Positions 14,785 to 64,000 of a stretch of 64,000 nucleotides of DNA are shown in pieces (the stretch's first letter is position 1; each line of letters begins with the position of its first letter). Position numbers and translations under genes: made by a program. The stretch is from Capsulimonadaceae bacterium (lineage in GTDB: Bacteria; Armatimonadota; Armatimonadia; Armatimonadales; Capsulimonadaceae): the NCBI GenBank assembly GCA_031292625.1, contig JARLGU010000062.1, positions 100,354 to 164,353 of the forward strand, written 5' to 3'. The notes beneath the pieces were generated by a model. It was not told the origin of the DNA and ran no database searches. It saw only the letters and a list, made by a program, of their open reading frames with translations.

Positions 14785-14936
14785 GGCATCGGTCAGGTAG
14801 GGCGGACCTGCCTACGCCGACGTGCCTTACTGGTCAAGCGCTTTGCATGCGGCTAGCCAACAGGCTGAGTGTTTAGCGGCTAAGGAAAAATGGCCAGCCC
14901 GGCCATGGAGGGCATCTTAATCCTCATCTTCTCTTA
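14785..14936 (+). repeat. Dispersed repeat X, copy B (3' part), interrupted by a MITE
   Basis: ggctagccaacaggctgagtgtttagcggctaaggaaaaatggccagcccggccatggagggcatcttaatcctcatcttctctta; continues after the insertion at 15181 (acaaagcgaaaatcc..ctatttaat). Confidence 0.75.
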
Positions 14937-15180
14937 GAGGGTGTATAAAAACCGTGCGCCTCGGTAATCAGATTTCGGATGGCTCATGCCGCCAGGGCAT
15001 TTTTTCTTGGTCGCTGCGCTCCAGGTTAAGCACAGTCAGCTGATTGCGACAATATCGCCGTCTTCGGCGCATGAAGAATGGCCGCCCGGCCATGGAGGGC
15101 TCCGAATTCTTTATTCGTATTGCCCGCCCATTGAATAAAGTCGCCGCTGTACAACGCGCTTTGACTTTTTACACAAACTC
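14937..15180 (+). mobile_element. MITE-like non-autonomous element (about 244 bp) inserted in repeat X
   Basis: Imperfect TIRs GAGGGTGTATAAAAACC / GACTTTTTACACAAACTC; TTA (or CTCTTA) on both sides; copy A gives the empty site ctcttctcttataaagc. Confidence 0.65.
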
Positions 15181-15329
15181 TTACAAAGCGAAAATCCTAA
15201 CCACAATGCTATTTAATATTGGGACGGCGTGGAGTCGCCTTACAATCTTCGTTTGCAATACACTCTTCACGCCGTATTCATGACGGCCCGGTAACCTACC
15301 GGCAAGCGAGTCTATCAAGTTGAGGGCAT

Positions 15330-36334: not shown

Positions 36335-39300
36335 ATGTACCGAAATATCCTGTTCGCAATTATCATCGCTTTCTCGCTTCTCGGCTTCTCCGGAGTTGGC
36401 AGGGCGCAGGCGCTGCCGGCCATAACGTCCATCAGCGCTGTCGTGGCTGACGCTACCACGTCGTCCATTACATTGTCTTGGAGCGCACCGAGCGGCGCAA
36501 CGACGGGCGTGACGTACAACATTTATCGGGGGACTAAATCAACTGTGTATGCTGGAACACCAGTTGGGACGGCGTCTTACCCTGCAACGACATTTATTGA
36601 CTCCGGCCTTACGCCAGGCACGCAATATTTTTATGTTGTGACATCGGTTATTACGGTTAGCGGTACGAAATACGAGAGCCTTTACAGCACGCCTGAAGTG
36701 TCGGAATACACGCTTTGCTCCTCGACGACCCTAAACGTCCCGACAGTTCCCATTAGCTCATGGGAGGAAGTCGATCTTTCGTGGACAGCGGTTACTGGAG
36801 CAGCGAGCTACAACGTTTATCGCGAGGCTACGTATTTGGGCGAAGCGTTGCCTCAGTGGACTTGCATCAAGGTGGGCTGCTTAACAACAAAGTTTGTTGA
36901 TGATGGCATCAACGACACCACCGCGCCAGATCCGGGTGCCGGTGGATCTGGCGCCGGCGAAGTACCGGAGTCGTACTCGTACTACGTTACAGTCAACAAC
37001 CAGCAGGGCACTGCGCATACTGCTGGCACTGAAGGGACGGCGACGCTTGGCCTGGAGAGCAACACGGTAACTGCTACCGCAAACGGGCCGGTAGATCTCA
37101 CTGCGGTCGTCGGCGGGAACAACCAGGCCGCGCTGACGTGGACAGACACAGATAACGCATTAAGCTACAATATTTACCGTGCCACGTCGAGCGGTAATGA
37201 AGTACTTGTTAAGAGCGGTATTACAGCCAAGAGTTATACTGACACGGGGCTCGCTAGCGGAACTTGGTATTACTATCGAGTGACAGGCAACTACAGCACC
37301 TGGATTCCTACATACGAAAGTGGTAAGAGTAACGAGGCTTACTCGGAGACTATCCCAATTGTTCCGGCAAACCTGACTGCTGTGGGCAGCAACGCGCAGA
37401 TTTTGCTTAGTTGGACAATTTGCCCAAACGCGATTGGCTACAACCTCTATCGTAGTTCGACTTCGTCCGGCGGACCGTGGTCCAAAGTTACCGAAGTTTC
37501 CTCGGCCCTATCGAGCTGCGCGGACTCTAGCCTTACTCCTGGACAAACCTATTGGTATTACTTGACATCGCTTTCGTTTGGCGGCGAGAGCGCCCCAAGC
37601 AACGTCGCATCGGCTACGGTCGCGGGACCGACTAATTTGATTGCCACGCCTGGAAACGCCCAGGTCTTGCTGAATTGGTCCGCCGCGACAGGGGCTTCGA
37701 CTTATTATATTTACCGAACCTTGGCGAATGGGGCAGCGGGCAGCGAAAATTCGACATACATCGCGACGGCCACGTCCACGAGTTATACGGACCAGTCTGT
37801 TACAAACGGCGACACCTATTATTACGAGGTGAGCGCCGAGACGCCTTTGGGAGCCGGCGCCGTGAGCAATGAGGCCTCTGCTACCCCCGCTGTTCGGCCG
37901 GCGGTGCCGACGGATCTTGTTGCAACGCCTGGTATACAGCAGGTCGCTTTAAGCTGGAACGCGCCAGTGGGTGCAACGGGCTCTGTGACCTATACCGTCT
38001 ACCGAGGGACAGCGTCTGGCGGCGAAAGCCTTCTTGCGGCAAATATTACCTCGACCACCTACTCGGACACGGGATTGTCCAATAATCAGATCTATTACTA
38101 CTATGTGACGGTGACTATCAACGGTTCTGAGAGCCTGCCGAGCAATGAGGTGTACGCGACGACGCCGCCCGCCGCTCCGACAGGTCTGACCGCGCAGGCG
38201 CAAACGGGGCCGAATGTCCTGCTGAACTGGAATGCGAGCGCCGGCGCCACAAGCTACAATATTCTACGCAGTACGGCGTCTGGATCCGAGCAGGTTCTGA
38301 CGAGCACTACGCCAGCCACGGTCACCGCAACCACCTACACCGATACGACGGTAAGCGGGGGCACGACTTATTATTATGAAGTTCAGGCGGTTAACAGTGT
38401 AGATGCGTCAGTTCCGAGCGCATCAAGCGCGGAGGCAAGCGCGACGACCGTGCCTTCGGCGCCGACGCTCAATGCTCCTGTTGGCGGCAACCAGCAGATC
38501 ATCTTGTCGTGGTCACCGTCGGTCGGGGCAACTGGCTACAATGTTTATTGCGGGACATCGCCAGGCAGCGAAACGAAAGTGGGGCAGGTTTCTTCTTCGG
38601 TGACGACCTTCACGAACGCAGGACTTTCGAACGGAACCACCTATTACTATGAGGTGACCGCATATGATGCGGGCGGAGAAAGCGTAAAGAGCAACGAAAC
38701 GAGCGCAATTACGATCCCCGCTGCTCCGATCAATCTTTCGGCTACGGGCGGCGCTACGAGCATATCGCTGACGTGGACTGCTTCCACAGGGGCGTCGAGC
38801 TACAATATCTATCGCGGCACATCTTCAGGCGGCGAGGTAAAGATTTCCACCACGCCTGCTACCGTCACCTCTACGACCTACAGTGACACTAGCGTCACAT
38901 CCGGTGACACCTATTTTTACGAAGTGACTGCCGTTAACAACACCCCTGCCGAAAGCAGTAGGAGCAACGAGGTATCGGTAAGTGCGACAACCACCCCCTC
39001 GGCCCCGAGCGGTCTTTCGGCTACCGTGCCATCGGGCGGCCTTGCGCAGGTTGTCCTTGCATGGTCCGCTCCTTCGACCGGGACGGTTGCTACGTATAAC
39101 ATCTATCGTAGCGCGACGTCTACCCCGTACACGTGGACGCAGGTGACTGCCGTTCCCTCGACGAGCACCGGCTATACGGATTCGAGTGTTTCGCTTGCCA
39201 AGGTCTACTACTACGAGATCACGGCGGTGAACGGCAGCGGGGTCGAGAGTTCCGCAAGTAACGTCGCGAGTGCAACGACGCCTTTGGCAGCCCCAACGGG

Positions 39301-42300
39301 ACTGACCGCGACCGGCGGGACGCAGCAGGTCGTACTCGCTTGGACGGCGGTTAGCGGCGCAACGAGCTATGACGTTTATCGATCGCTTACGTCCGGCGGC
39401 GAGGCCCAAGTCCAGACCGGAGTGACGACGACAAGCTATACGGATTCATCTCTGACGCCGGGCACGACCTACTACTATGAGGTGACGGCGGTCTACAGCG
39501 GTGTCGAGAGCGCGCGGAGCACCGAGAAGAACACCACGACGATACCGGCCGCTCCCAGCCTCAATACGCCGGTTCCCGGCATCGGACAGGTCGGGCTCTC
39601 CTGGACGCCTCCCAGTTCAGGGCCGGCGCCGTCGAGCTACAACATATATCGCTCCACGACCCCAGGCGCTGAGGTTGACGTCAAATCGGGCGTGACCTCC
39701 ACGAGCTATGCGGACACAACTGTAAGTGCCGGCACGACCTACTACTACGAGGTGACTGCGGTCAATGCGGGAGTTGAGAGTCCGAAGAGCGCTCCAGAGC
39801 AATCCGCTACGACGTATCCCGCAGCGCCATCCGGGCTAGTCGCGACGGGCGGACAAGCCAAGGTTTCGTTGACTTGGACCGCTTCCACCGGAGCATCAAG
39901 CTACAACATTTTCCGTGGAACTTCGCTGGGAGGCGAAGCGCAGATCACAACTTCGCCGGTCACCGTTACTACCACAAGTTACACCGATTTGGCAGTCAGT
40001 ACCGGCACCGTTTACTACTACTACGTGACGGCGGTCGGCGCCAGCGGGCAGAGCAGCGGCAGTAATGAACAGAGCGCGACTACAGCGCCTGCCGCGCCGA
40101 CGCTCGCTGCTCCTGCCGCAGGTAATGGCCAGGTCGTTCTATCTTGGAGCGAGGCCACTGGTCAGACGGTCACCAGCTTTAATATTTACCGGGGCCTATC
40201 GGCTGGCGGCGAATCGACAACGCCGATCGCATCCACATCCGGGACTTCAACGACGTACACGGATACAAGTGTTACGAATGGGGCGACCTACTATTACTAC
40301 ATGACCGCCGTAAACTCTGGCGGCGAAAGCCCGGATAGCACGGAACAGGGACCCGAAAACCCGGTGTCTGCGATCTCGGCGCCGACACTTGCGCTGGGAA
40401 CGCCTGCGATTCCGCTCGGGGGCGCGGCCTCGATTTCTCTATCATGGACGGCTGGCGGAACGGGAACTGCCGCGACGTACAATGTCTACCAGAGCTTGAC
40501 AGGCATTGCGGGCTCATGGTCGGTTGTAGCGTCGGTTCTTTCGTCTGCTACGAGCTATACCGTTACGGGGCTGAGCGCGGACACTCTTTATCACTATTAT
40601 GTGACGGCAGTCACGAGCGGTGGAAGCGAGAGTTCTGCAAGCAATACGGTAAGTGACACGACCCCGACAACGGCGCCTGCGATTACCACGATCACTGGCG
40701 GCAGTTCGCAGGTTTCGTTAACATGGACGCGACCTACAGGCGCGACCAGTTTCAATCTCTACCGCTCCTCCACGGGTGCTGGCGGGGAAGGTTCAACCCC
40801 ATACCAGTCGTCGCTGACGGCGCTTACCTTTACCGACACGAGTGTTAGTTCCGGCTCCAAGTACTACTATTATATGACTGCCGTTAACGTTGGCGGGGGC
40901 GAAAGTGCCGCTAGCGCGGAGAAGAACGCTACGACGATTGCGGCGGCGCCGACACTTTCTGCGCCTGTTGCTGGCAACGGTCAGGTCGCTCTTTCGTGGA
41001 CGGAGACGACCGGCCAGATCGTGAGCAGCTATAACATTTACCGTGGAACCGCGTCAGGCGGCGAGAGCTCGACGCCCCTAGCGTCAGTGACTTCCACTTC
41101 GACGACGTACACGGATACGACTGTCGCGAATGGAACGCAGTATTGGTACTTCGTTACCGCGGTCAACGCGGGCGGCGAAAGCGGCCACGGCTCCGATCAG
41201 GCGGCGACTCCCTCAGCGCCAACTACTCCAACAGCGCTGAACGCGACTGGCGGGAACCAGCAGGTTCTGCTGACCTGGACGGCTCCGGCTGGGAGCCCGG
41301 CCAGCTACAACATCTACCGCAGCCTCACATCCGGCGGCGAAGGCACGACGGCGTATAAGACGGGCGTGAGTTCGACGAGCTATACGGACAGCGGTCTGAC
41401 GAACAACACGCAGTATTTCTATGAGGTGACGGCCGTTTACAGCGGCGCTGGCGAGAGCGCCAAGAGCACGGAAGCCGCTGCGTGGACGCTTTGCGCCGCG
41501 CCGACGCTCCTGGCTGCGACCGCCGGCAATGGGCAGATCGGCTTGTCGTGGACGGCGCCAACCGGCGGCGCGTCGAGCTACGACGTATTCCGGGGCACCA
41601 GCTCTGGCGCAGAGACCTCGCTCACGACGGTCACGTCGACGAATTGCACCGACTCATCAGGTCTCGCCAATGGCACGACGTACTACTACTACGTGACGGC
41701 CGTTAACGGGGCGGGCGTTCAGGGCCCTCGAAGCAATGAACCCCATGCGACGCCGTCAGCCGCGATCCCTGCGAACCTGACCGCGACCGCGGGAAACGCG
41801 ACCGTAACGCTTGCTTGGACCGCTGTTAGCGGCGCGACGGCCTATAACATCTATCGAAGCGCCACGTCCGGCGGCGAGGGGACCACGGCCACTTACAGCC
41901 CGGCGGGCACGGCGACGACATACGCGGACAGCGCCGTGACGAACGGCACGGCAAACTATGAAGTGACGGCAATTACGTCCGGCGGCGAAAGCGCCAAGAG
42001 CAATGAGGCGAACGCCACGCCTCTCTCGCCCGGGCCGACGAGCCTTGTCGCGACTCCTGGCAATCAACAGGTCTCGTTGACCTGGACCGCGCCAACGGGC
42101 GCCACGGGCTCGACGACATATAGTGTGTATCGTGGAACATCCTCTGGCGGCGAGGCGCTTACGCCGGTGGCGACAAGCCTTGCCGGCACTACGTACGTCA
42201 ACTCGGGCCTGACGAACGGCACGACATACTACTACGAAGTGACGGCGGTGACATCTTCGGTTGAAAGCGCGAAGAGCAACGAGGCCAGCGCCGCGCCCGT

Positions 42301-45300
42301 GCCTCCGGCTCCTACGGCGCCGACAAACCTGTCGGCGACCGGCGGATACCAGCAAGTCGCGTTGACGTGGACGGCTGGGAGCGGCGCATCGTCGTACTCC
42401 GTCTATCGCGGCACGGTCGCGGGCGGCGAGGCTGCCACCCCCATCGCATCCGGCGTGGCGTCGACGAGCTTTACGGATAATGCGGCGACGGACGCGAGCA
42501 GCACTCCGGCCAACAACCTGACATACTACTACACCGTCATCGCCGTCAATAGCGTTGGCGTTGCGAGTTCATCGAGCAACGAGGCGCACGCGATGACCCT
42601 GCCTGGGCCGCCGACCGGTCTCAATGCCGTGGGCAGCAATCAGGTGATTTCGCTGACGTGGACCGCGCCGTCGGGCGGCGTGTCCGGATACAGCGTATTC
42701 CGAGGCACGGCCTCCGGTGGGGAGTCCTTCCTGACAAGCGTCCCGTCGACGGTGACCAATTGCTTCGATACCGGCGTTTCGCCCGGCACCACGTACTACT
42801 ACTACGTGACGTCGCTAAACAGCGCCGGCGGCTCGAGCACCGCCAGTACCGAGGCGCACGCTACGGCATCGCCGGCAGCTCCCGTCCTCGCCTCGGCAAC
42901 CGCCGTGAACAAGCAGGTGACTCTCGTGTGGGCCGCCTCGACTGGCGCGACGAGTTACAACGTGTATCGCGGGACAACCGCTAGCGGCGAGTCCGCAACG
43001 CCTGTCGCAACCGGCATCGCCGCGCTAACATATGTTGATACCAGCCTTACGGATGGCACGACATACTTCTACGAGGTGACGGCTGTCGATGCCGGCGGCG
43101 AGAGTCTCAAGAGCAACGAATTGAGCGCGACTCCGACGCCGGGCGCGCCGACGAACCTGATCGCAACCGCTGGTAACCAGCAGGTCTTGCTGACGTGGAC
43201 GGCTGGGGCCGGCGCCGCGACCTATAATATCTACCGTGGATCGACTTCAGGCGGCGAGGGCACGACGCCCTATAAGACGGGCGTGGCGACTGCGAGCTAT
43301 ACTGACACCGGCCTAACTGATGGCACTACGTACTATTACACGGTGACCGCGGTGAACGTCGACGAAAGCGCGGCGAGCAATGAGGCGCACGCGGCTCCGG
43401 CTCCCAACGCGCCGGCAGGACTGAGCGCGACCGGCGGCAGCCTCCAGGTTTCCCTTAGCTGGACCGCGTCGGCCGGGGCTGTAACCTATAACGTGTACCG
43501 GGGAACGACGTCAGGCGGCGAATCGGCGACGGCCATACAGACCGGTCTGACCAGCCCGAGCTATCTCGACACTGGCCTAACCGCCGCAACGCAGTATTTC
43601 TACAAGGTGACTGCGGTCAACGTCGACGAGAGCGCCAAGAGCGCGGAGGCGAATACGTGGACCTTCGCGCCAGTTCCGACCGGCCTCCTGGCCTCGGCGG
43701 GCAATAAGCAGGTTTCACTAACGTGGAACCCATCCGGCGGAGCTACAAGCTACAACATCTATCGCGGAACGACGTCAGGCGGCGAAGGAAGCACGGCCTA
43801 TAAGACGGGCGTGACTACCGCAAGCTACGCCGATACGAGCGTGAACGATGGTACGAAATACTTCTACACGGTGACGGCCGTCGACGCAGGAGGCGAGAGC
43901 GCCCAGTGCTCGGAAGCGTCCGCAACGCCGGTTCCCGACAAGCCGACGAACCTGATTTCCACACCCGGAAACCAGCAGGTCGTGCTGGCGTGGACGGCTG
44001 GGGCCGGCGCTGTGACCTATAACATCTATCGTGGATCGACTTCAGGCGGCGAAGGCACGACGCCCTATAAGACGGGCGTAGCGGCCGTGACCTACACCGA
44101 CTCCGGCCTAACTGATGGCACGACGTACTATTACACGGTGACCGCGGTGAACGTCGACGAGAGTGCGGCGAGCAACGAGACATCCGCAGAACCGCTTCCA
44201 AATGCGCCAACAGGCCTAACGGCCACTGCCGGCGAGGCCCATGTCTCGCTTTCGTGGACCGCATCCGCCGGGGCGGTGACTTACAATGTCTACCGTGGAA
44301 CGTCGGCAGCCGGCGAGGCCGCGACGCCGGTCCAGACAGGCGTAACGGGGACCACGTATAACGATCCCGGTCTCACCGATGGCCAAACGTACTATTATAA
44401 AGTTACCGCCGTCAACACTGACGAAAGTAGCAAGAGCAACGAAGCGTCCGCGACGCCGCTTCCCGACGGCCCAACCGGGCTGATCGCAACCGGCGGCGTT
44501 CAGAGCGTCTTGCTTAACTGGACGGCATCTGTGGGCGCAACCAGCTACAAGGTCTACCGCGGAGCATCCTCCGGCGGCGAAGGCTCGACGGCCGTAGCGA
44601 CCGTGACCAGCCCGACCTACACCGACCCCAGCTTGAGCGACGGTACGACTTACTACTATAAGGTGACCGCAGTCAACGGTTTGGAAACCGCCAAGAGCAA
44701 CGAGGCCAACGCCATTACGATGGCTGCGGTGCCCACGATCCTCACGGCGGCCGCAAGCAATCAACAAGTGTCGCTTACGTGGACAACCTCCACCGGCGCA
44801 ACCAGCTACAACGTCTACCGTGGAACGACGTCAGGCGGCGAATCGGCGACGCCAGTCGCGACAGGCCAGACGACGGGAGCGTTTACGGATAGCGGTCTGA
44901 CCGATGGCACGACTTATTACTACGAGGTTACGGCGCTCGATAATGCCGGCGAAAGCGCGAAGAGCCAGGAAGCACCGGCTAAACCTGCGCCGAGCACGCC
45001 GACTGGCCTCACCGCGACGGGCGGCGCTCAGAGCGTTTCGCTGTCCTGGACAGCGCCTGCCGGAGCCTCAACCTACAACGTTTACCGTGGAACCACATTG
45101 GGCGGCGAGAGCAGCACTCCCGTTGCCACGGGGGTGCCCGGTACGACTTACGTCGACTCAGGTTTGGCGGACGCCACCAAGTATTTCTACAAAGTGACGG
45201 CCGTGAACGGCGCTGAAAGCGGGCAGAGCGGGGAATCTTCCGCGACAACGTACGCTGCGGTTCCGTCGATTCTGACGGCGACGGGCGGCGCTCAGAGCGT

Positions 45301-48300
45301 TTCGCTAACATGGACCGCGTCTACCGGCGCAACCAGCTACAACGTCTACCGTGGCACGACGTTGGGCGGCGAATCGGCGACGCCCGTTGCGACGGGGCTG
45401 ACCAGCCCAAGCTATCTCGACACCTCGTTGAGCGATAGCACGAAATACTATTACGAAGTGTCAGCGCTGGACGCGGGCGGTGAAAGCGGCAAGAGCGCCG
45501 AGGCGCATGCAACCACATTTGCTCCCGCGCCAACGGGCCTCACGGCAACTCCCGGCAACCAACAGATCGTGTTGAACTGGAATGCATCCAGTGGCGCGAC
45601 GAGTTACAACGTCTACCGTGGCACGACGTTAGGCGGCGAAGGCGCGACGGCCGTAGCGACCGTGACCAGCCCGACCTACACCGACCCCGGACTGACGGAT
45701 GGCACGACGTACTTCTACAAGGTGACGGCGGTTCTCGCGGGCGGCGAGAGCGCTAAGAGTAACGAGGCGACGGCTGCGCCGCTTCCCGATGCGCCGGCAG
45801 GCTTGAGTGCAACTGCGGGTAACCAGCAAGTCTCGTTGACCTGGACTGCCTCGGCTGGCGCAGTGACCTACAACGTCTACCGTGGCACAACGGCGGGCGG
45901 CGAAGGCGCGACGCCTTATAAGACGGGCGTGGCGACCGCGAGCTACACCGACACCGGACTGACGGACGGTACGCCGTACTACTACAAAGTGACTGCGGTG
46001 AATGTCGATGAGAGCGGCGCCAGCAATGAGACGTCCGCGACGCCGCTGCCTGACGCGCCGTCAGGTCTGACGGCAACTAGCGGCAGCTTGAAGATCTCGC
46101 TCTCTTGGACGGCGTCCGCCGGTGCGTTGACTTACAACGTTTACCGTGGGACTGCGGCTGGAGCGGAGTCGGCAACCCCGATTGCGACTGGCGTGACTTC
46201 GACAAGCTACACCGATACGGGTCTATCTAGCTTGACGACGTACTATTATAAGGTGAGCGCGGTGAACGTCGCCGTAAGCGCCAAGAGCAACGAGGCGCAC
46301 GCGAAGACAGTTGCCGCAGTGCCGACTGGCCTTTCCGCCGTGCCCGCGCATGAACAGATCTCGTTGACCTGGACTGCGGTCACCGGCGCAACGAGCTACA
46401 ACGTCTACCGCGGCACGTCGGCGGGCGGCGAAGCGGCGACGCCTGTTGCGACGGGGTTGACCACCGCGACTTATACGGATACGAGCCTGGCCGATGGGAT
46501 TCCGTACTATTACAAGGTGACCGCGGTCGATGGGGATGGCGAGAGCGCCATGAGTTCCGAAGCCACCGCGACAACGTTCGCTTCGGTTCCAACCGGCCTG
46601 ACCGCGACGCCGGGCAATCAGCAGATCACGCTGGCCTGGACGGCATCAACGGGAGCGGTCAGCTATAAGGTGTATCGTGGAACGACGGCGGGTGGAGAGG
46701 CGGCGACTCCGGTTGCCGTGGGACTTAAAACTTGCGCCTATGTCGATACGGGCCTGACCAACGGCACGACGTACTATTACACGGTCACCGCGGTTGATGC
46801 AGGCGGCGAGAGCGGTGCCAGCAACGAGGCCCACGCTGCCCCGGTCGCTAATGTTCCAAGCGGGCTCACCGCGACGGCCGGCAACTTGAAAATTACGTTG
46901 TCTTGGACGGCGTCCGCCGGCGCTGCGACGTACAACGTCTACCGAGGGACGACCTCGGGCGGCGAATCGGCGACGGCGATTGCCACGGGCGTGAGCAGTA
47001 CGAGCTACGTTGACACCGGCCTCACCGCCGCAACGCAGTACTTCTACACGGTGACAGCGGTCAACGTAGATGAAAGCGCTCCGAGTAACGAAGCGAACGC
47101 AACGACGTTTGCGGCAGCGCCGACCGGTCTAACGGCGGTGGCGGGAAGCCAGCAGGTGTCGTTGACATGGACTGCCTCGTCGGGTGCGGCGAGCTACAAG
47201 GTCTACCGCGGCACATCGGTCAACGGGGAGGCAGCTACCGCGGTTGCGAGTGGCGTTACAGCGACAAGCTACACCGATACGTCCTTGACCGACGGTACGA
47301 CGTACTACTACAAGGTCTCGGCTGTTGGGGTGGGCGGTGAAGGCCCCGTGAGCAGCGAAGCGTCCGCGACACCGCTCCCGGATGCTCCGACCGGGCTGAC
47401 GGCCACTGCCGGAAATCTGCAGGTTTCGCTTTCATGGACGGTGTCCGTTGGCGCTCTGACCTACAACGTGTACCGGGGAACGTCCGCCAATGGCGAATCG
47501 TCGATACCTGTTGCGACTGGCTTGACTGCCGCCGCGAAGGCGACGACCGTATCCTATAACGACACGGGCCTCTCGGATGGCACGACATACTACTACAAGG
47601 TGACGGCTGTTAGCGGCGTCGAGAGCGCTAAGAGTAACGAAGCGTCCGCGAAGCCTCTTCCGGTCACGCCAGTGAGTCTGACGGCAACGGCGGGCGATCA
47701 GCAAGTTGTCCTGTCGTGGAGCGCAAGCACGGGGGCCGTGACCTACAAGGTCTACCGAGGCACAACGTCCGGCGGCGAAGCGTCGACTGCCGTTGCGTCC
47801 GGAGTGACGTCCACGGGTTGGACCGATACGACCGTGACGAACACGAAGACCTATTACTACTACGTCACCGCAATCAACGGCGCTGGCGAAAGCCCGGCCA
47901 GCAACGAAGCGAGTGCGACGCCGTTTGGCGCAACGAACCTGACGGCAACGGCCGCGCCTTCCCAGGTGACACTGTCGTGGACGTCCGCGGGTTCTCAGGC
48001 TACAGGATACAACCTGTACCGCGGAACGGCCGCAGGCGGCGAAGCGTCGACGCCTCTCGCGACGTTGACATCGTCGACGACGAGCTATGTCGACAATAGC
48101 GCGAACAGCGGCGCATCCGCGCCTGTCAACGGTACGACGTACTACTACTACGTGACGGCGACGACCGCGTCCGGCCAGAGCGCCAAGAGCAACGAAGCCT
48201 CAGCAACGCCGGAGCCGGCTATTCCATCCGCTCCGACGGGCCTGACGGCGACCGCAGGATATCAGCAAGTCTTGCTCTCGTGGACGGCTGCCGCAGGGGC

Positions 48301-49741
48301 GGTTTCCTATAACGTCTACGCAGGCACGACAAGCGGCGCTGAAGCAGCGACGCCGGTTGCCAGTGTCGCCGCACCGTCGGTAGGCTACACTCAGATGGCA
48401 TTGACCAATGGGCAGGCTTACTATTACCAGGTTACGGCGGTGAATGGGGGAGGGGAGAGCGCCAAGAGCAGCGAGGCGACCGCGACTCCGGAGCCGCCGA
48501 GCGCGACCGCTCCAACGTTCTCGCCCGTTGCCGGGACATACACGTCTCCGCAGACGGTGACGATAACGGACTCGCTTACCGGGGCAGCAATCTACTACAC
48601 CACGGACGGAACGACGCCTACGACGTCATCCACGTTGTATAAGACGCCAATCGCGGTGAGTACGACTACGACGATCAATGCGATTGCCATCGTCTCCGGA
48701 TTTGCGAACTCGTCCGTATCGACGGCGACGTTCACAATCCAGGTGCCTGTTCCAGCGATATCGCCGGACGGCGGCTCGTATGTCTCGAAGGTAAAGGTCT
48801 CCTTAACCGACTCGTTGGCGTCTGCAACTCTGCTGTACACAATTGACGGCAGTAATCCGGCGACGAGTTCGACGGCGAGTACATACTCGGGAGCGTTTTA
48901 CCTGACCTCCAGCGCAACCGTGAATGCCGTCGCAAAGTCGGGGGCTGCGACAAGCGCCGTGGCTTCGGCTGCGTTTACAATTCAGCCTCAAGTTCCAGCG
49001 CCGTCAATCTCGCCGGCGTGGGGGACATACTACGGACCGGTAAGCGTGACCATCACGGACTCGCTCAGTTCGGCGAAAATCCTGTACACGACCGACGACA
49101 GCGACCCGGCAACGAGCGCTACGGCAGTGGTCTACTCGGGAGCGTTTACCGTCTCCAGCCGGTGCACCGTTACGGCCGTGGCGATCGCGTCGGGCTATGC
49201 AAATAGCGCGGCGACAGAGGCCAGTTACACGCTCGTGCCGCCATCGTATACGGCCGGTCTCAGTTTCTTCTCGTGTCCGTATGATTATCCTGGAATTGCA
49301 CTGGATACGTTATTCGGATACACGGGAGTGAAACTGGCGACGTGGTCACCCGGTGACGACGCTTGGTACGTGACCCCCAACGGAGCCGCGAACGCGATCC
49401 GGCTGGGCCAAGGCTACTGGGCCAGGTTCCCTGAGGATGTAACACTGACAAGCTTCGGCACTTCCGCGGATATAACCAAAACGTTCGCAATCAGCCTGAC
49501 GGCTGGCTGGAACATGATTGGCGATCCGTTCGCAACATCGGTGGCGCTCTCCTCTACGACGTACGGTTCAAGCTCATTGAGCTTCGCATCCGCGTCTTCC
49601 GGGTCGAATCCGCTGATCTGGTCGACGGTGTACAGCTACTCGGCATCGGCAGACAATTACGTCGCGGCAACCAGCCTCGCTCCATTGCTTGGCTACTGGA
49701 TCTACGCATATCAAAGCACGACGATGTACGTGCCGTACTAG
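36335..49741 (+). CDS. Giant secreted multidomain FN3-repeat protein (4468 aa) with CHB_HEX_C-type repeats and a C-terminal conserved domain
   Basis: Signal peptide MYRNILFAIIIAFSLLGFSGVGRAQA; ~45 FN3-type units (SWTA..GA.SYNVYRGTTSGGE...YTDTGLTDGTTYYYKVTAVN..GES..SNEA); C-terminal Y.TPQTVTITDS...IYYTTDGTTPT repeats. Confidence 0.92.
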   Translation: MYRNILFAIIIAFSLLGFSGVGRAQALPAITSISAVVADATTSSITLSWSAPSGATTGVTYNIYRGTKSTVYAGTPVGTASYPATTFIDSGLTPGTQYFYVVTSVITVSGTKYESLYSTPEVSEYTLCSSTTLNVPTVPISSWEEVDLSWTAVTGAASYNVYREATYLGEALPQWTCIKVGCLTTKFVDDGINDTTAPDPGAGGSGAGEVPESYSYYVTVNNQQGTAHTAGTEGTATLGLESNTVTATANGPVDLTAVVGGNNQAALTWTDTDNALSYNIYRATSSGNEVLVKSGITAKSYTDTGLASGTWYYYRVTGNYSTWIPTYESGKSNEAYSETIPIVPANLTAVGSNAQILLSWTICPNAIGYNLYRSSTSSGGPWSKVTEVSSALSSCADSSLTPGQTYWYYLTSLSFGGESAPSNVASATVAGPTNLIATPGNAQVLLNWSAATGASTYYIYRTLANGAAGSENSTYIATATSTSYTDQSVTNGDTYYYEVSAETPLGAGAVSNEASATPAVRPAVPTDLVATPGIQQVALSWNAPVGATGSVTYTVYRGTASGGESLLAANITSTTYSDTGLSNNQIYYYYVTVTINGSESLPSNEVYATTPPAAPTGLTAQAQTGPNVLLNWNASAGATSYNILRSTASGSEQVLTSTTPATVTATTYTDTTVSGGTTYYYEVQAVNSVDASVPSASSAEASATTVPSAPTLNAPVGGNQQIILSWSPSVGATGYNVYCGTSPGSETKVGQVSSSVTTFTNAGLSNGTTYYYEVTAYDAGGESVKSNETSAITIPAAPINLSATGGATSISLTWTASTGASSYNIYRGTSSGGEVKISTTPATVTSTTYSDTSVTSGDTYFYEVTAVNNTPAESSRSNEVSVSATTTPSAPSGLSATVPSGGLAQVVLAWSAPSTGTVATYNIYRSATSTPYTWTQVTAVPSTSTGYTDSSVSLAKVYYYEITAVNGSGVESSASNVASATTPLAAPTGLTATGGTQQVVLAWTAVSGATSYDVYRSLTSGGEAQVQTGVTTTSYTDSSLTPGTTYYYEVTAVYSGVESARSTEKNTTTIPAAPSLNTPVPGIGQVGLSWTPPSSGPAPSSYNIYRSTTPGAEVDVKSGVTSTSYADTTVSAGTTYYYEVTAVNAGVESPKSAPEQSATTYPAAPSGLVATGGQAKVSLTWTASTGASSYNIFRGTSLGGEAQITTSPVTVTTTSYTDLAVSTGTVYYYYVTAVGASGQSSGSNEQSATTAPAAPTLAAPAAGNGQVVLSWSEATGQTVTSFNIYRGLSAGGESTTPIASTSGTSTTYTDTSVTNGATYYYYMTAVNSGGESPDSTEQGPENPVSAISAPTLALGTPAIPLGGAASISLSWTAGGTGTAATYNVYQSLTGIAGSWSVVASVLSSATSYTVTGLSADTLYHYYVTAVTSGGSESSASNTVSDTTPTTAPAITTITGGSSQVSLTWTRPTGATSFNLYRSSTGAGGEGSTPYQSSLTALTFTDTSVSSGSKYYYYMTAVNVGGGESAASAEKNATTIAAAPTLSAPVAGNGQVALSWTETTGQIVSSYNIYRGTASGGESSTPLASVTSTSTTYTDTTVANGTQYWYFVTAVNAGGESGHGSDQAATPSAPTTPTALNATGGNQQVLLTWTAPAGSPASYNIYRSLTSGGEGTTAYKTGVSSTSYTDSGLTNNTQYFYEVTAVYSGAGESAKSTEAAAWTLCAAPTLLAATAGNGQIGLSWTAPTGGASSYDVFRGTSSGAETSLTTVTSTNCTDSSGLANGTTYYYYVTAVNGAGVQGPRSNEPHATPSAAIPANLTATAGNATVTLAWTAVSGATAYNIYRSATSGGEGTTATYSPAGTATTYADSAVTNGTANYEVTAITSGGESAKSNEANATPLSPGPTSLVATPGNQQVSLTWTAPTGATGSTTYSVYRGTSSGGEALTPVATSLAGTTYVNSGLTNGTTYYYEVTAVTSSVESAKSNEASAAPVPPAPTAPTNLSATGGYQQVALTWTAGSGASSYSVYRGTVAGGEAATPIASGVASTSFTDNAATDASSTPANNLTYYYTVIAVNSVGVASSSSNEAHAMTLPGPPTGLNAVGSNQVISLTWTAPSGGVSGYSVFRGTASGGESFLTSVPSTVTNCFDTGVSPGTTYYYYVTSLNSAGGSSTASTEAHATASPAAPVLASATAVNKQVTLVWAASTGATSYNVYRGTTASGESATPVATGIAALTYVDTSLTDGTTYFYEVTAVDAGGESLKSNELSATPTPGAPTNLIATAGNQQVLLTWTAGAGAATYNIYRGSTSGGEGTTPYKTGVATASYTDTGLTDGTTYYYTVTAVNVDESAASNEAHAAPAPNAPAGLSATGGSLQVSLSWTASAGAVTYNVYRGTTSGGESATAIQTGLTSPSYLDTGLTAATQYFYKVTAVNVDESAKSAEANTWTFAPVPTGLLASAGNKQVSLTWNPSGGATSYNIYRGTTSGGEGSTAYKTGVTTASYADTSVNDGTKYFYTVTAVDAGGESAQCSEASATPVPDKPTNLISTPGNQQVVLAWTAGAGAVTYNIYRGSTSGGEGTTPYKTGVAAVTYTDSGLTDGTTYYYTVTAVNVDESAASNETSAEPLPNAPTGLTATAGEAHVSLSWTASAGAVTYNVYRGTSAAGEAATPVQTGVTGTTYNDPGLTDGQTYYYKVTAVNTDESSKSNEASATPLPDGPTGLIATGGVQSVLLNWTASVGATSYKVYRGASSGGEGSTAVATVTSPTYTDPSLSDGTTYYYKVTAVNGLETAKSNEANAITMAAVPTILTAAASNQQVSLTWTTSTGATSYNVYRGTTSGGESATPVATGQTTGAFTDSGLTDGTTYYYEVTALDNAGESAKSQEAPAKPAPSTPTGLTATGGAQSVSLSWTAPAGASTYNVYRGTTLGGESSTPVATGVPGTTYVDSGLADATKYFYKVTAVNGAESGQSGESSATTYAAVPSILTATGGAQSVSLTWTASTGATSYNVYRGTTLGGESATPVATGLTSPSYLDTSLSDSTKYYYEVSALDAGGESGKSAEAHATTFAPAPTGLTATPGNQQIVLNWNASSGATSYNVYRGTTLGGEGATAVATVTSPTYTDPGLTDGTTYFYKVTAVLAGGESAKSNEATAAPLPDAPAGLSATAGNQQVSLTWTASAGAVTYNVYRGTTAGGEGATPYKTGVATASYTDTGLTDGTPYYYKVTAVNVDESGASNETSATPLPDAPSGLTATSGSLKISLSWTASAGALTYNVYRGTAAGAESATPIATGVTSTSYTDTGLSSLTTYYYKVSAVNVAVSAKSNEAHAKTVAAVPTGLSAVPAHEQISLTWTAVTGATSYNVYRGTSAGGEAATPVATGLTTATYTDTSLADGIPYYYKVTAVDGDGESAMSSEATATTFASVPTGLTATPGNQQITLAWTASTGAVSYKVYRGTTAGGEAATPVAVGLKTCAYVDTGLTNGTTYYYTVTAVDAGGESGASNEAHAAPVANVPSGLTATAGNLKITLSWTASAGAATYNVYRGTTSGGESATAIATGVSSTSYVDTGLTAATQYFYTVTAVNVDESAPSNEANATTFAAAPTGLTAVAGSQQVSLTWTASSGAASYKVYRGTSVNGEAATAVASGVTATSYTDTSLTDGTTYYYKVSAVGVGGEGPVSSEASATPLPDAPTGLTATAGNLQVSLSWTVSVGALTYNVYRGTSANGESSIPVATGLTAAAKATTVSYNDTGLSDGTTYYYKVTAVSGVESAKSNEASAKPLPVTPVSLTATAGDQQVVLSWSASTGAVTYKVYRGTTSGGEASTAVASGVTSTGWTDTTVTNTKTYYYYVTAINGAGESPASNEASATPFGATNLTATAAPSQVTLSWTSAGSQATGYNLYRGTAAGGEASTPLATLTSSTTSYVDNSANSGASAPVNGTTYYYYVTATTASGQSAKSNEASATPEPAIPSAPTGLTATAGYQQVLLSWTAAAGAVSYNVYAGTTSGAEAATPVASVAAPSVGYTQMALTNGQAYYYQVTAVNGGGESAKSSEATATPEPPSATAPTFSPVAGTYTSPQTVTITDSLTGAAIYYTTDGTTPTTSSTLYKTPIAVSTTTTINAIAIVSGFANSSVSTATFTIQVPVPAISPDGGSYVSKVKVSLTDSLASATLLYTIDGSNPATSSTASTYSGAFYLTSSATVNAVAKSGAATSAVASAAFTIQPQVPAPSISPAWGTYYGPVSVTITDSLSSAKILYTTDDSDPATSATAVVYSGAFTVSSRCTVTAVAIASGYANSAATEASYTLVPPSYTAGLSFFSCPYDYPGIALDTLFGYTGVKLATWSPGDDAWYVTPNGAANAIRLGQGYWARFPEDVTLTSFGTSADITKTFAISLTAGWNMIGDPFATSVALSSTTYGSSSLSFASASSGSNPLIWSTVYSYSASADNYVAATSLAPLLGYWIYAYQSTTMYVPY
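48520..49235 (+). other. Three tandem chitobiase/beta-hexosaminidase C-terminal-like (CHB_HEX_C) domains
   Basis: AGTYTSPQTVTITDSLTGAAIYYTTDGTTPTTSS; GGSYVSKVKVSLTDSLASATLLYTIDGSNPATSS; WGTYYGPVSVTITDSLSSAKILYTTDDSDPATSA. Confidence 0.7.
49244..49741 (+). other. Conserved C-terminal domain (CTD) shared with the S53 peptidase protein
   Basis: SYTAGLSFFSCPYDYPGIALDTLFGYTGVKLATWSPGD...GQGYWARFPEDVT...AGWNMIGDPFATS...GYWIYAYQSTTMYVPY. Confidence 0.9.
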
Positions 49742-50595: not shown

Positions 50596-51037
50596 GAGGG
50601 TGTGTAATAAACTGGCGTATTGTGAGAAGGATTCAGGACGGCTCGTGCCGCCGGGGCAATTTTTTGCCCGCGCCTCGTTCACGGCGGTGATTTACGGTGC
50701 TTCGTCAACACGCGTACGGCCTTTTGCCGCCATCGTCCGCCGGTCACGGACCGGTCTCGCCCGCGCCTCGTTCACGGCGGTGATTTGCGATGCCTCGTCA
50801 ACACGCGTACAGCCTTTTGCCGCCATCGTCCGCCGGTCACGGACCGGTCTCGCCCGCGCCTCGTTCACGGCGGAGAGTTCCGATGCCTCGTCAACACGCG
50901 TACGGCCTTTTGCCGCCCGGGTCCGATTGCAGCGCACATCGTGAAGCAGTGAAAGCGCTTTGACGACCCTTTTTCAAAAACGGCCACGGCGGCCGGGGAG
51001 CCGTCTTACAAGACCTTTCGATTCTTTATGCACGCTC
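50596..51037 (+). mobile_element. MITE-like element related to 14937-15180, carrying three 93-bp units
   Basis: Left end GAGGGTGTGTAATAAACTGGC, right end (rev. comp.) GAGCGTGCATAAAG; shared 'ggattcaggacggctcgtgccgccggggcaatttttTgcccgcgcc' with 63830 onwards. Confidence 0.5.
50671..50940 (+). repeat. 93-bp tandem repeat, ~2.9 units
   Basis: cgcctcgttcacggcgg begins at 50671, 50764, 50857 (period exactly 93); each unit contains the CCGGTC-acg-GACCGG dyad. Confidence 0.9.
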
Positions 51038-53552: not shown

Positions 53553-55466
53553 CTAGTGATTCGTTGCCGACGTCGTTCCGGCGTTGTTGTTCGTTCCCTT
53601 CCCTGGCGTTTTGCTGGTGGCCGGCGCCTTAGCCGCTGGCTGTACCGCCGACGTCCGGACGTTGCTTACCGCAGCTGGAGAAGAGGCCGGCGTGCGGCTG
53701 AATGCCGTGGACTGCGATTGTCCTCCACGGTTTCCCGTAGCCCCGCCCATTCCTGACAGACTTTGGCTGAGGCCGCCGCCAGACGGCTGGCTCTGGATGT
53801 TTGACGTGCGCGCTCCGCTGCTCGTGTTTCCCGAAAATGTGCGGCTGGGCGTGCTCGTCTGACTGCTCGAACCGCCGTTGGATTGGTTTGCGATCGGCGT
53901 ACGCGGAGGAATGACTGTCGTTCCCGTACTCGTCGCCGTATGGTTCACCGCGCTGCCGGATGTGACGCGACTGCCCGGCGTGCTCGTCGTCGCGCCGTTC
54001 GTTGCGCTGCCAGATGTGACGCGACTGCCCGGCGCGCTCGTCGTCGTGCCGTTCGTTGCGCTGCCGGATGTGACGCGACTGCCCGGTGCGCTCGTCGTCG
54101 TGCCGTTCACTGCGCTGCCGGATGTGACGCGACTGCCCGGCGCGCTCGTCGTCGTATGGCTGGTCGCGCTGCCAGGCGTTTCGATATCGTGGCGTGCGGC
54201 CGCATTCACCGGCTCGTGGACGCCGGGAACCGGAGATTGCGCGTGGCCGGGCGACAGGTGGTCTGGTCTGCGAACATCTTCATGACGCGGCGGCACGGGA
54301 GCTTCCCGGTGGACGATGCCGTGGTCGGGCTGCCGATCTGGGTGCCGGATATCGTTTCCATGCATGGGACCATGCTCATCGACGTGATGGCGGTTCCAAT
54401 CGGATCTGCGATCTTGAACTTCGACTCTGTGGTAGATGTTGCGGTCACGATAGGCTGGGTGGAACCCGCCGGCGTGTCCGCGATAGTACTCATGGTAGCC
54501 GCTCCATCCTTCGTAGCGCGCGCCGCCGATCTCGACGACAAGGCCTGGCGTAGCCATCAGCGCTACACCGTTGGAATAGGCTCTATGGCTCCAATAGCCT
54601 CCCCGGTAAAACATCCCGTGATACCAGCCCATCTCGTTGTAGGCATCCCAATTCGGGGCTACGCCAAGGTAAACCGGCACCGACGGATGAAACCCTGGCG
54701 AGAAGGGATACCATCGTCCATCGCTCACCGTGGCGTTTTCGAGGTAGCCGTCGGGAGGAAGATAGAGAATCGGCGTCGCGCCGTCGCGGTTCACGAATGA
54801 CATCGTGCCGTCGTAGCTTAGCCCAAACTTCATCACGTAAAGGTTTTGATCGGTAAACGGTACAAGGATGGTTTCGCCCTGTGTGTCATATATCTGGTAG
54901 CCGCCGGCATCGAACGATGCTCGTACAATGGAGACGCTTTGATTCTGCGGAATGTCCGTCCAATTGAATACGTTGTTTTGCTCGACTGGCGGGCTTGGAG
55001 GGGAGACAACGACCGGGGGGGCAACTTCGTTCTGAATCAGCTTGGGTTCAAAGTACCCTCCGGAACTGCCCATGAACTGCAGCCGGTAGAGCGATAACGT
55101 TCGATGTCCCGTCAACGGAATATCGATAAAGACAGGGGACTGTCCTGACCGGACGAACGTCTCGAATGCCTTTTGACCGTCGACGTCTACGCGGAAGGAC
55201 GAAAACTCGCGTCGGCCGTCCGCGATGCCGACGTAGGCTTGAAAGCGATCAAATGACGAAACGTCAAATGTTGCGGGGCCTCGATCCGGCCAGCAATGGT
55301 AGTCGAAAGGCTTTCCTCTCACGGATGTCAGATTGTTGGCGAACGCCCATGAACCGGACATTGGGTGGATCTGATCGTCAAGCCTCACGACCAGAGGGTC
55401 GCTGTGAGTTGTTTTGATGAGCAAGCACAGAAGCAATGGCAGCAAAGCCAGAAATAGCCGTTTCAT
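53553..55466 (-). CDS. Secreted NPCBM/NEW2-like domain protein with His-rich segment and Ser/Thr-rich repeat tail
   Basis: Signal peptide MKRLFLALLPLLLCLLIKTTHS; PATFDVSSFDRFQAYVGIADGRREFSSFRVDVDGQKAFET; start with SD AAGGAAG. Confidence 0.7.
   Translation of the reverse strand: MKRLFLALLPLLLCLLIKTTHSDPLVVRLDDQIHPMSGSWAFANNLTSVRGKPFDYHCWPDRGPATFDVSSFDRFQAYVGIADGRREFSSFRVDVDGQKAFETFVRSGQSPVFIDIPLTGHRTLSLYRLQFMGSSGGYFEPKLIQNEVAPPVVVSPPSPPVEQNNVFNWTDIPQNQSVSIVRASFDAGGYQIYDTQGETILVPFTDQNLYVMKFGLSYDGTMSFVNRDGATPILYLPPDGYLENATVSDGRWYPFSPGFHPSVPVYLGVAPNWDAYNEMGWYHGMFYRGGYWSHRAYSNGVALMATPGLVVEIGGARYEGWSGYHEYYRGHAGGFHPAYRDRNIYHRVEVQDRRSDWNRHHVDEHGPMHGNDIRHPDRQPDHGIVHREAPVPPRHEDVRRPDHLSPGHAQSPVPGVHEPVNAAARHDIETPGSATSHTTTSAPGSRVTSGSAVNGTTTSAPGSRVTSGSATNGTTTSAPGSRVTSGSATNGATTSTPGSRVTSGSAVNHTATSTGTTVIPPRTPIANQSNGGSSSQTSTPSRTFSGNTSSGARTSNIQSQPSGGGLSQSLSGMGGATGNRGGQSQSTAFSRTPASSPAAVSNVRTSAVQPAAKAPATSKTPGKGTNNNAGTTSATNH
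53945..54180 (-). repeat. 54-bp tandem coding repeat (18-aa TTTSAPGSRVTSGSAVNG)
   Basis: gatgtgacg at 53959, 54013, 54067, 54121 (period 54). Confidence 0.9.
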
Positions 55467-55620
55467 AATGCGTTCTTCCTTGTCGATGCTTTGAACAAAC
55501 GAAATGAGTGTCGAAGAGCTCAAGCTTAGAGATGGATAGTTCAAGCGCTGATGCTCTGCGTGATGCTTGTTTTAGGGCGTGAGAGCTTCGCTAAGTTCCT
55601 ACTGCTAGAACTGAAAAGGA

Positions 55621-62140: not shown

Positions 62141-63502
62141 CTAAAGAACGATCGATCCGCCAGACGCCAATTCGTTTCTCACGTCGCCAACCGAGACGGC
62201 TCGAATGTTTCCGCTTTGTGAACGTACGGCGAGCGCAGCCGCAACACCGGCCGCCTCGCCGGTTTGATTGAGGTTGACCATTACTCGGATCGCTCCATGT
62301 GCCGCTTGGTCGGCGTCGATCATTCTGCCGGCGACGACGATGTTGTCGTATGGCCCCTGCGGGAGCATGCTGCGCAGGGGGATCTGGTAGTAAGGCGTGT
62401 TTGCCGAACCTTCAGGACGCCAACGCGAGACCTCCGTTGGCCGGCCAGGGCAGGAATAGCGCTGCGTTCCGTCAAGGTACATTAGCGTCGTGCCGGGCTT
62501 GTCGCTATGGTGGATGTCCACGGGATAGGTCCCGTTTGCTATCGCATCATCGAACCGCACCCCTTCGAGTATGTCGTCTTTCGTTAGCTGGTATGCGCAT
62601 CTCACATGCCGGGACTCGCGAATCCCGATGCGCGCGGGCAGGGTGGTAAGCGTCAACTTGGTGTCCGGCGCGTATTTTCGCAAAATGTCCTGAATCGCCC
62701 GAACCTGGCGACGACCTTCCATCTCCGCGTAGGTCAGATAGCTCGCATCCGCGCAGCTTCCGCCCGAAACCCGGGTGCCTGCCAGCATAATGACGTCGCT
62801 GCCAGGGATGCCCGCGTACCAGACAAATCCCTGCGGGAAGCCGTACTCTGCCCCATGTTCTTGGACGAGATTTCCCAGGTCCACGCCTTTGAGCCGGGAC
62901 AATCCTTCTAAGAATGCGCAAGTCGTCGAAGGCTGGATCTGGTTTGCGTTGTATGTTTCAAGACCGAGCCTCGCGCAGAGATCCCCGTCGCCCGTGGCGT
63001 CGATAAACGACTTCGCGAGGATTGCCCCACGACCGGATTTGTTCTCGACGATCACGCCCTGAAGACGTTCGTCGTCGCCGACGTATGGGGCTGCAAATTG
63101 GGTGTGCAGGTAAGGAGTGACGGTCTTCGCTTCTCGGACCATTTCGTCGAGTTCGATCGTAAGCTCCGCCGAATTGAACTCCCAAAAGTCGTGGACATTC
63201 CGTTCTTTGACCCTGACAGCGCCACGTTTGCTCAGACGCGTCATTACATCAGTGGTCAGGCCCGCGATAATCTGCCGATCGAAGAACGCATCTAGCGGCG
63301 GATGCCAGAGGTTGACAAGCGATAGGGTTGCAACGCCGCCGAAGCAGCCCATACGCTCAACGAGGATCACGCGGGCGCCTAAGCGAGCTGCGCGAATTGC
63401 CGCGAAAACGCCGGTGCAGCTTCCGCCAAGGACGCAAACGTCGGCCTCCTCAAGGATTGGAATACTGCGGGACGGTTCAACAATCAGGCCATAAGCTTCC
63501 AT
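62141..63502 (-). CDS. FAD-dependent oxidoreductase
   Basis: EADVCVLGGSCTGVFAAIRAARLGARVILVERMGCFGGVATLSLVNLWHP; FIDATGDGDLCARLG. Confidence 0.88.
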   Translation of the reverse strand: MEAYGLIVEPSRSIPILEEADVCVLGGSCTGVFAAIRAARLGARVILVERMGCFGGVATLSLVNLWHPPLDAFFDRQIIAGLTTDVMTRLSKRGAVRVKERNVHDFWEFNSAELTIELDEMVREAKTVTPYLHTQFAAPYVGDDERLQGVIVENKSGRGAILAKSFIDATGDGDLCARLGLETYNANQIQPSTTCAFLEGLSRLKGVDLGNLVQEHGAEYGFPQGFVWYAGIPGSDVIMLAGTRVSGGSCADASYLTYAEMEGRRQVRAIQDILRKYAPDTKLTLTTLPARIGIRESRHVRCAYQLTKDDILEGVRFDDAIANGTYPVDIHHSDKPGTTLMYLDGTQRYSCPGRPTEVSRWRPEGSANTPYYQIPLRSMLPQGPYDNIVVAGRMIDADQAAHGAIRVMVNLNQTGEAAGVAAALAVRSQSGNIRAVSVGDVRNELASGGSIVL

Positions 63503-63635: not shown

Positions 63636-63829
63636 CAGTTGGACTTCCGCTTGCTGTGCGTTAAGCGAGTGGGTACCGTAAATTGGTCAGGACTTGGGAG
63701 CGCTTCTCAGGCCGCTGGGCGATATTTCAAGCGCTTCGCGTACGGCTTGCCAACAGGCTGCGTGTTAAGCGGCTAAAGAGAAATGACCAGCCCGGCCATG
63801 GAGGGCATCTTAATCCTCATCTTCTCTTG
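63636..63829 (+). repeat. Dispersed repeat X, copy D
   Basis: ~190 bp closely matching 607-812; ends at ...catcttctctt where a MITE-like element begins. Confidence 0.85.
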
Positions 63830-64000
63830 GAGTGTAATTAACTGGCATATTGCGAGAAGGATTCAGGACGGCTCGTGCCGCCGGGGCAATTTTTCGCCCG
63901 CGCCTCGTTCACTGCGGTGTTTTACGATGCTTCGACGACACGCGTACAGCCCTTTGCCGCCATCGTCCGCCGGTCACGGACCGGTCTCGCTCGCGCCTCG
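63830..64000 (+). mobile_element. MITE-like element (5' part, truncated by window end) with 93-bp repeat unit
   Basis: GAGTGTAATTAACTGGCATATTGCGAGAAGGATTCAGGACGGCTCGTGCCGCCGGGGCA...; 93-bp unit 63901-63993 then a second unit starts. Confidence 0.55.

Follow-up and report, generated by a model that had tools for sequence, protein, structure and literature searches.

Two copies of a dispersed repeat, X, in the window (the whole 64,000-nucleotide stretch analyzed here) are each interrupted by a second element, M or an M-like relative, at what looks like the same internal position. The locus thus raises the question of whether M is directed to X, whether X and M multiplied together after a single joining event, or whether X happens to offer a target of a kind that M uses anywhere. 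The preliminary description of this DNA had proposed either site-specific targeting of X or co-evolved composite repeats.

The uninterrupted reference, copy A, occupies positions 619 to 825 on the plus strand. Sequence comparison and target-duplication analysis showed that it is 207 bp long, with TTAAG on either side (614 to 618 and 826 to 830). The left part of copy D (63640 to 63828, plus strand) starts with the left terminal inverted repeat TTGGACTTCCGCTT, as other X copies do, and is 88% identical to copy A across 189 bp. It then breaks off at ...CATCTTCTCTT, at about X base 190; copy A runs on past this site as ...TCTCTTATAAAGCAAAAGTCCTA. From 63829/63830 to the window edge, the sequence is 92% identical to an element at 50596 to 51037, a solo M copy outside X on the plus strand (442 bp, with three 93-bp units), whose flanks CAA and TAA represent an imperfect TNA duplication. 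The M sequence inside copy D (63829 to 64000, plus strand) begins GGAGTGTAATTAACTGG and corresponds, at the same 92% identity, to 50599 to 50770. The break of X and the start of a related element in copy D, as first described, were thereby confirmed.

Copy B, also on the plus strand, holds a different M-type element. The right-hand part of X up to the insertion site (14834 to 14936) is 89% identical to copy A, with the left part diverged or lost. The insert itself (14937 to 15180, plus strand) reads GAGGGTGTATAAAAA...TTTTTACACAAACTC, is 244 bp long without the 93-bp repeat and has TTA on each side. The right end of X follows at 15181 to 15199 (plus strand) and reads TTACAAAGCGAAAATCCTA. Copies B and D therefore do contain two inserts at one X site, as had been noticed. 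One detail was misread: "ctatttaat" had been taken for X sequence, but X ends with CCTA, which in copy A is followed by the TTAAG target duplication.

Contig C33 (164,353 bp; the window is C33:100354-164353) stops at window base 64000, so that the M insert of copy D is cut off inside its array of 93-bp tandem units. Contigs C20, C21, C23 and C53 likewise begin or end within M, as does the window at 63829 to 64000, and these MITEs are a likely cause of assembly breaks. Elsewhere in the window, a single open frame of 4468 aa (36335 to 49741) with about 30 repeats of 264 to 267 bp encodes a giant repetitive protein, and five head-to-tail 54-bp units (53929 to 54198) lie inside the minus-strand open frame 53553 to 55544. 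The gene at 62141 to 63502 has its best protein relatives in Verrucomicrobiota, at about 61%.

X is a gene-less element of about 207 bp present in about 40 copies (43 matches in its own genome), with the terminal inverted repeat TAGGACTTTCGCTT at both ends. Of the 21 copies that could be tested, 9 have an exact 5-bp target duplication, and several more match at four of five bases; examples of the duplication are ATTGT (contig C46), ATAGC (C18) and the TTAAG of copy A. At the start of contig C41 we found a 1,117-bp element, L077, which encodes an IS701-family transposase (NF049921, 349.7 bits) and carries at both ends 14-bp terminal inverted repeats identical to those of X. X encodes no transposase, and the comparison of X with L077 revealed no similarity outside the ends. 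Since the 14-bp ends are identical and L077 has the IS701-family transposase, X is a MITE, a non-autonomous derivative bearing IS701-family ends, and L077 could, judging from these sequences, move it.

M is also gene-less. Its ends read GAGTGTGTAATAA...TTACACACGCTC, with GAGTGTGTAATAA as the terminal inverted repeat at both ends, and its length is about 256 bp plus a variable number of 93-bp tandem units, from zero to several (256, 348, 441 and 534 bp). There are at least 85 copies in the genome (52 among the matches listed, 88 copies aligned), and degraded extra copies are present in an unselected 800-kb sample. M duplicates TNA, exactly in many copies, inside a TCTNAGA-like target, and a TNA target has been reported for the IS1031 subgroup of IS5 (PMC12016507). 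The TNA duplication and the GAG... ends are IS5/IS1031-type hallmarks of a non-autonomous MITE. An autonomous partner was not found in the genome, an absence made uncertain by the draft state of the assembly (65 contigs): the IS5-type families PF13340 and PF13586 are absent, and all six PF01609 matches lack M-type terminal inverted repeats. We therefore term M IS1031-like rather than an IS1031 derivative. A 1,041-bp stretch running from one terminal inverted repeat to another at C38:219890 was considered as the autonomous partner and turned out to be two separate MITEs. An Rfam search with X and M returned no family above its gathering score.

Across the genome, 8 of about 35 X copies hold M or an M-type insert at exactly one site, and the site is empty in about 27 others. 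The occupied copies are D, B, C38:205879, C18:59818, C48:28691, C60:145699, C21:43572 and C21:182, and TTA duplications border several of the inserts. It had been suggested that X should resume beyond the insert. When this was checked on other genomic copies, X was found to resume as TTACAAAGCGAAAGTCCTA or a close variant in five (B, C38:205879, C48:28691, C60:145699 and C21:43572); no X is visible beyond M in C18:59818 and C21:182. In two further X copies, C22:17809 and C58:123234, the M-type insert lies at another TTA site, close to X base 58. Both are X/M chimeras joined at a common motif, in which the right half of X replaces the right end of M. A ninth insert, reversed, adjoins the same X site at C19:87383. 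The surrounding region (C19:87350-87980) contains a reversed M between two X right ends, which suggests rearrangement or nested X insertion.

We then asked what the M target preference alone would predict. A position matrix was built solely from M insertion sites outside X, giving the consensus TCTNAGA. When five X copies were ranked with it, TCTCTTACAAA was the top-scoring site in every one. For seven copies that have the site intact, the predicted share of X-internal insertions falling at this site was 61 to 77%, and the observed share was 8 of 10; in an X copy with a mutated site, the prediction fell to 4%. Because a matrix derived from sites outside X ranks this site first and predicts that most X-internal insertions fall there, generic target preference explains the hotspot, leaving at most a 2- to 5-fold excess. 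That excess comes from a comparison with intergenic sites scoring as high as the X site, of which there are 27 in the unselected 800 kb and about 195 genome-wide: occupancy of the X site (8/35) is about 2- to 5-fold above theirs, with p between 0.002 and 0.1 depending on the assumed M total. As X is free of genes, selection against insertions near genes could produce such an excess, and recognition of X is unnecessary to account for it. Thus, the proposal of site-specific targeting stands in so far as one site has been hit repeatedly and mostly independently, but recognition of X itself is not needed once the TCTNAGA matrix is considered.

Taken with the element boundaries, terminal inverted repeats, duplications, multiple origins and target motif observed in this genome, these results make it very probable that the locus is a nested MITE, in which an IS1031-like M lands repeatedly at the best-matching target within an X that carries IS701-type ends. 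In the putative mechanism, an M transposase, whose source was not found in the genome, would cut at TNA within a TCTNAGA-like target. The best match to this target in X is TCTC-TTA-CAAAG, in the right subterminal part about 17 to 20 bp from the X end; for that reason M elements have landed there repeatedly, with duplication of the TTA. Because landing in a gene-less, intergenic element would presumably be harmless, the insertions would survive.

It is improbable that M instead integrates through specific recognition of X, whether of the sequence or of the hairpin, in the way that some IS recognize REP sequences. Such recognition would be consistent with the residual 2- to 5-fold excess over equal-scoring intergenic sites and with the orientation of M in X, which is alike in eight of nine cases (two-sided p = 0.04); this is so at a target that is close to a palindrome, and the matrix gives a slight preference to the opposite strand. 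X and M each form a hairpin over nearly the full length and fold better than shuffled sequence does (z = -5.4 for X and -4.4 for M), and the M site lies close to the base of the X hairpin. However, most M copies are at TCTNAGA sites outside X, a matrix blind to X already ranks the X site at the top, and harmless landing accounts for the excess equally well.

Slightly less probable still is that an X::M composite formed a single time and then spread as a whole by means of the X ends. In its favor, C38:205879 and C58:123234 keep the X ends and near-perfect (4/5) duplications around the whole composite, all inserts but one share their orientation, and the chimeras C22:17809 and C58:123234 are X and M sequences joined at a shared motif. 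The trees argue against it. In the tree of the X core, the eight occupied copies required eight label changes, and placing them in a single clade was rejected (AU p = 0.008). In the tree of M left parts, there were six changes for seven X-resident copies, at least five of them forced by supported branches, and a single clade of X-resident M was rejected as well (AU p = 0.0006), even though a few bases of flanking X were retained in the aligned M rows, which would favor clustering. Both trees are low in resolution, resting on short alignments of about 100 columns. Moreover, the insert in copy B is a different M type, and the occupied copies differ from one another, the X parts in their internal deletions and the M parts in the number of repeat units. 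Because the X tree and the M tree both reject one shared composite, the M insertions in X are mostly independent, and descent from one composite is rejected under the model used. The co-evolved composite initially proposed is therefore rejected as the only origin, even though X/M chimeras do occur. Spread of M between homologous X copies by gene conversion rather than transposition is very unlikely indeed: the chimeras show that inter-repeat recombination occurs, but the M parts within X are mostly not mutual closest relatives, and several inserts are flanked by TTA duplications.

Apart from the shared site, X, M and the copy-B insert have homologous inverted arms, short stretches of which match one another, even though the ends of X and M are of different IS types. 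Each of these arms can be read as an intrinsic terminator acting on transcription that runs into the element. In the right arm of X, the left arm of X and the right arm of M, transcription entering from outside would meet a hairpin and then a run of T. The outermost stem pair, ahead of the T-run, is C-G 51 times (CGGCC..GGCCG) and T-A 18 times (TGGCC..GGCCA). X rarely lies between divergent genes (1 of 27, versus 78 of 317), and no clear bias was seen in the gene context of M. These features are suggestive of bidirectional terminators, a function predicted here from sequence for the arms of both elements. We consider it possible, though doubtful, that a portable bidirectional terminator module has been captured by unrelated terminal-inverted-repeat systems and may favor the oriented nesting of M in X. 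If terminator-like arms are indeed common to MITEs with unrelated ends, this would point to exchange of a regulatory module between mobile families, which would matter more than the nesting.

In their right arms, X and M, MITEs with different ends, share the motif AAAAAYGGCC..GGCC..GGAG (in the window, for example, at 750 to 786, 14877 to 14913, 15065 to 15100 and 50975 to 51000), and at least four more short elements in the unselected 800-kb sample carry it (L182, L183, L189 and L192). In three X copies (C45:53331, C61:62571 and C58:123176; loci L021, L028 and L109), the center of the GGCC palindrome is the 36-bp GGTTCGACAAGCTCACCGCCCTGAGAGCGCCGAAGG or a close variant; two of these copies are sisters in the X tree.

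We also surveyed the distribution of both elements. Among the 41 genomes searched, which included the source genome, neither X nor M was found in the 40 others (from the same family, order or phylum), and an exact X motif had no match in a collection of named genomes.

Both elements resemble known systems in part. X shares its exact 14-bp terminal inverted repeat with L077, the resident member of the IS701 family, but differs from that family in lacking a transposase and any similarity past the ends. M resembles the IS1031 subgroup of the IS5 family in its TNA target, 3-bp duplication and ends starting with GA; unlike that subgroup, it lacks a transposase, and the genome yielded no partner IS. 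Another likeness is to BrickBuilt of Porphyromonas gingivalis (PMC4596501), an intergenic MITE with IS5-type terminal inverted repeats (GAG...CTC) and a variable internal tandem array; however, its units are 23 bp rather than the 93 bp of M, its target duplications are irregular rather than TNA, and the sequences differ. BOX, RUP and SPRITE of Streptococcus pneumoniae (PMC10969869) are, like X and M, small intergenic elements that nest mutually, some with terminator-like hairpins. In contrast to them, X and M reuse one target base, which the target motif explains, and the sequences are unrelated.

The REP-targeting IS (PMC1525189), to which the locus was first likened, also insert repeatedly into a dispersed palindromic repeat. 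The analogy proved to be loose: both partners here are MITEs, and M uses a degenerate 7-bp target, mostly outside X, so that its insertion is not confined to the repeat. Nesting of small elements in each other (PMC10969869) and the use of repeats as targets by IS (PMC1525189) have both been reported, and the nested X/M arrangement is what would ordinarily follow when two MITE families and a degenerate target motif come together. It provides a quantified one-genome case in which seemingly site-specific insertion into a repeat arises from ordinary target preference, and in which the two MITE families, the motif targeted by M and the IS701 partner of X are all defined.
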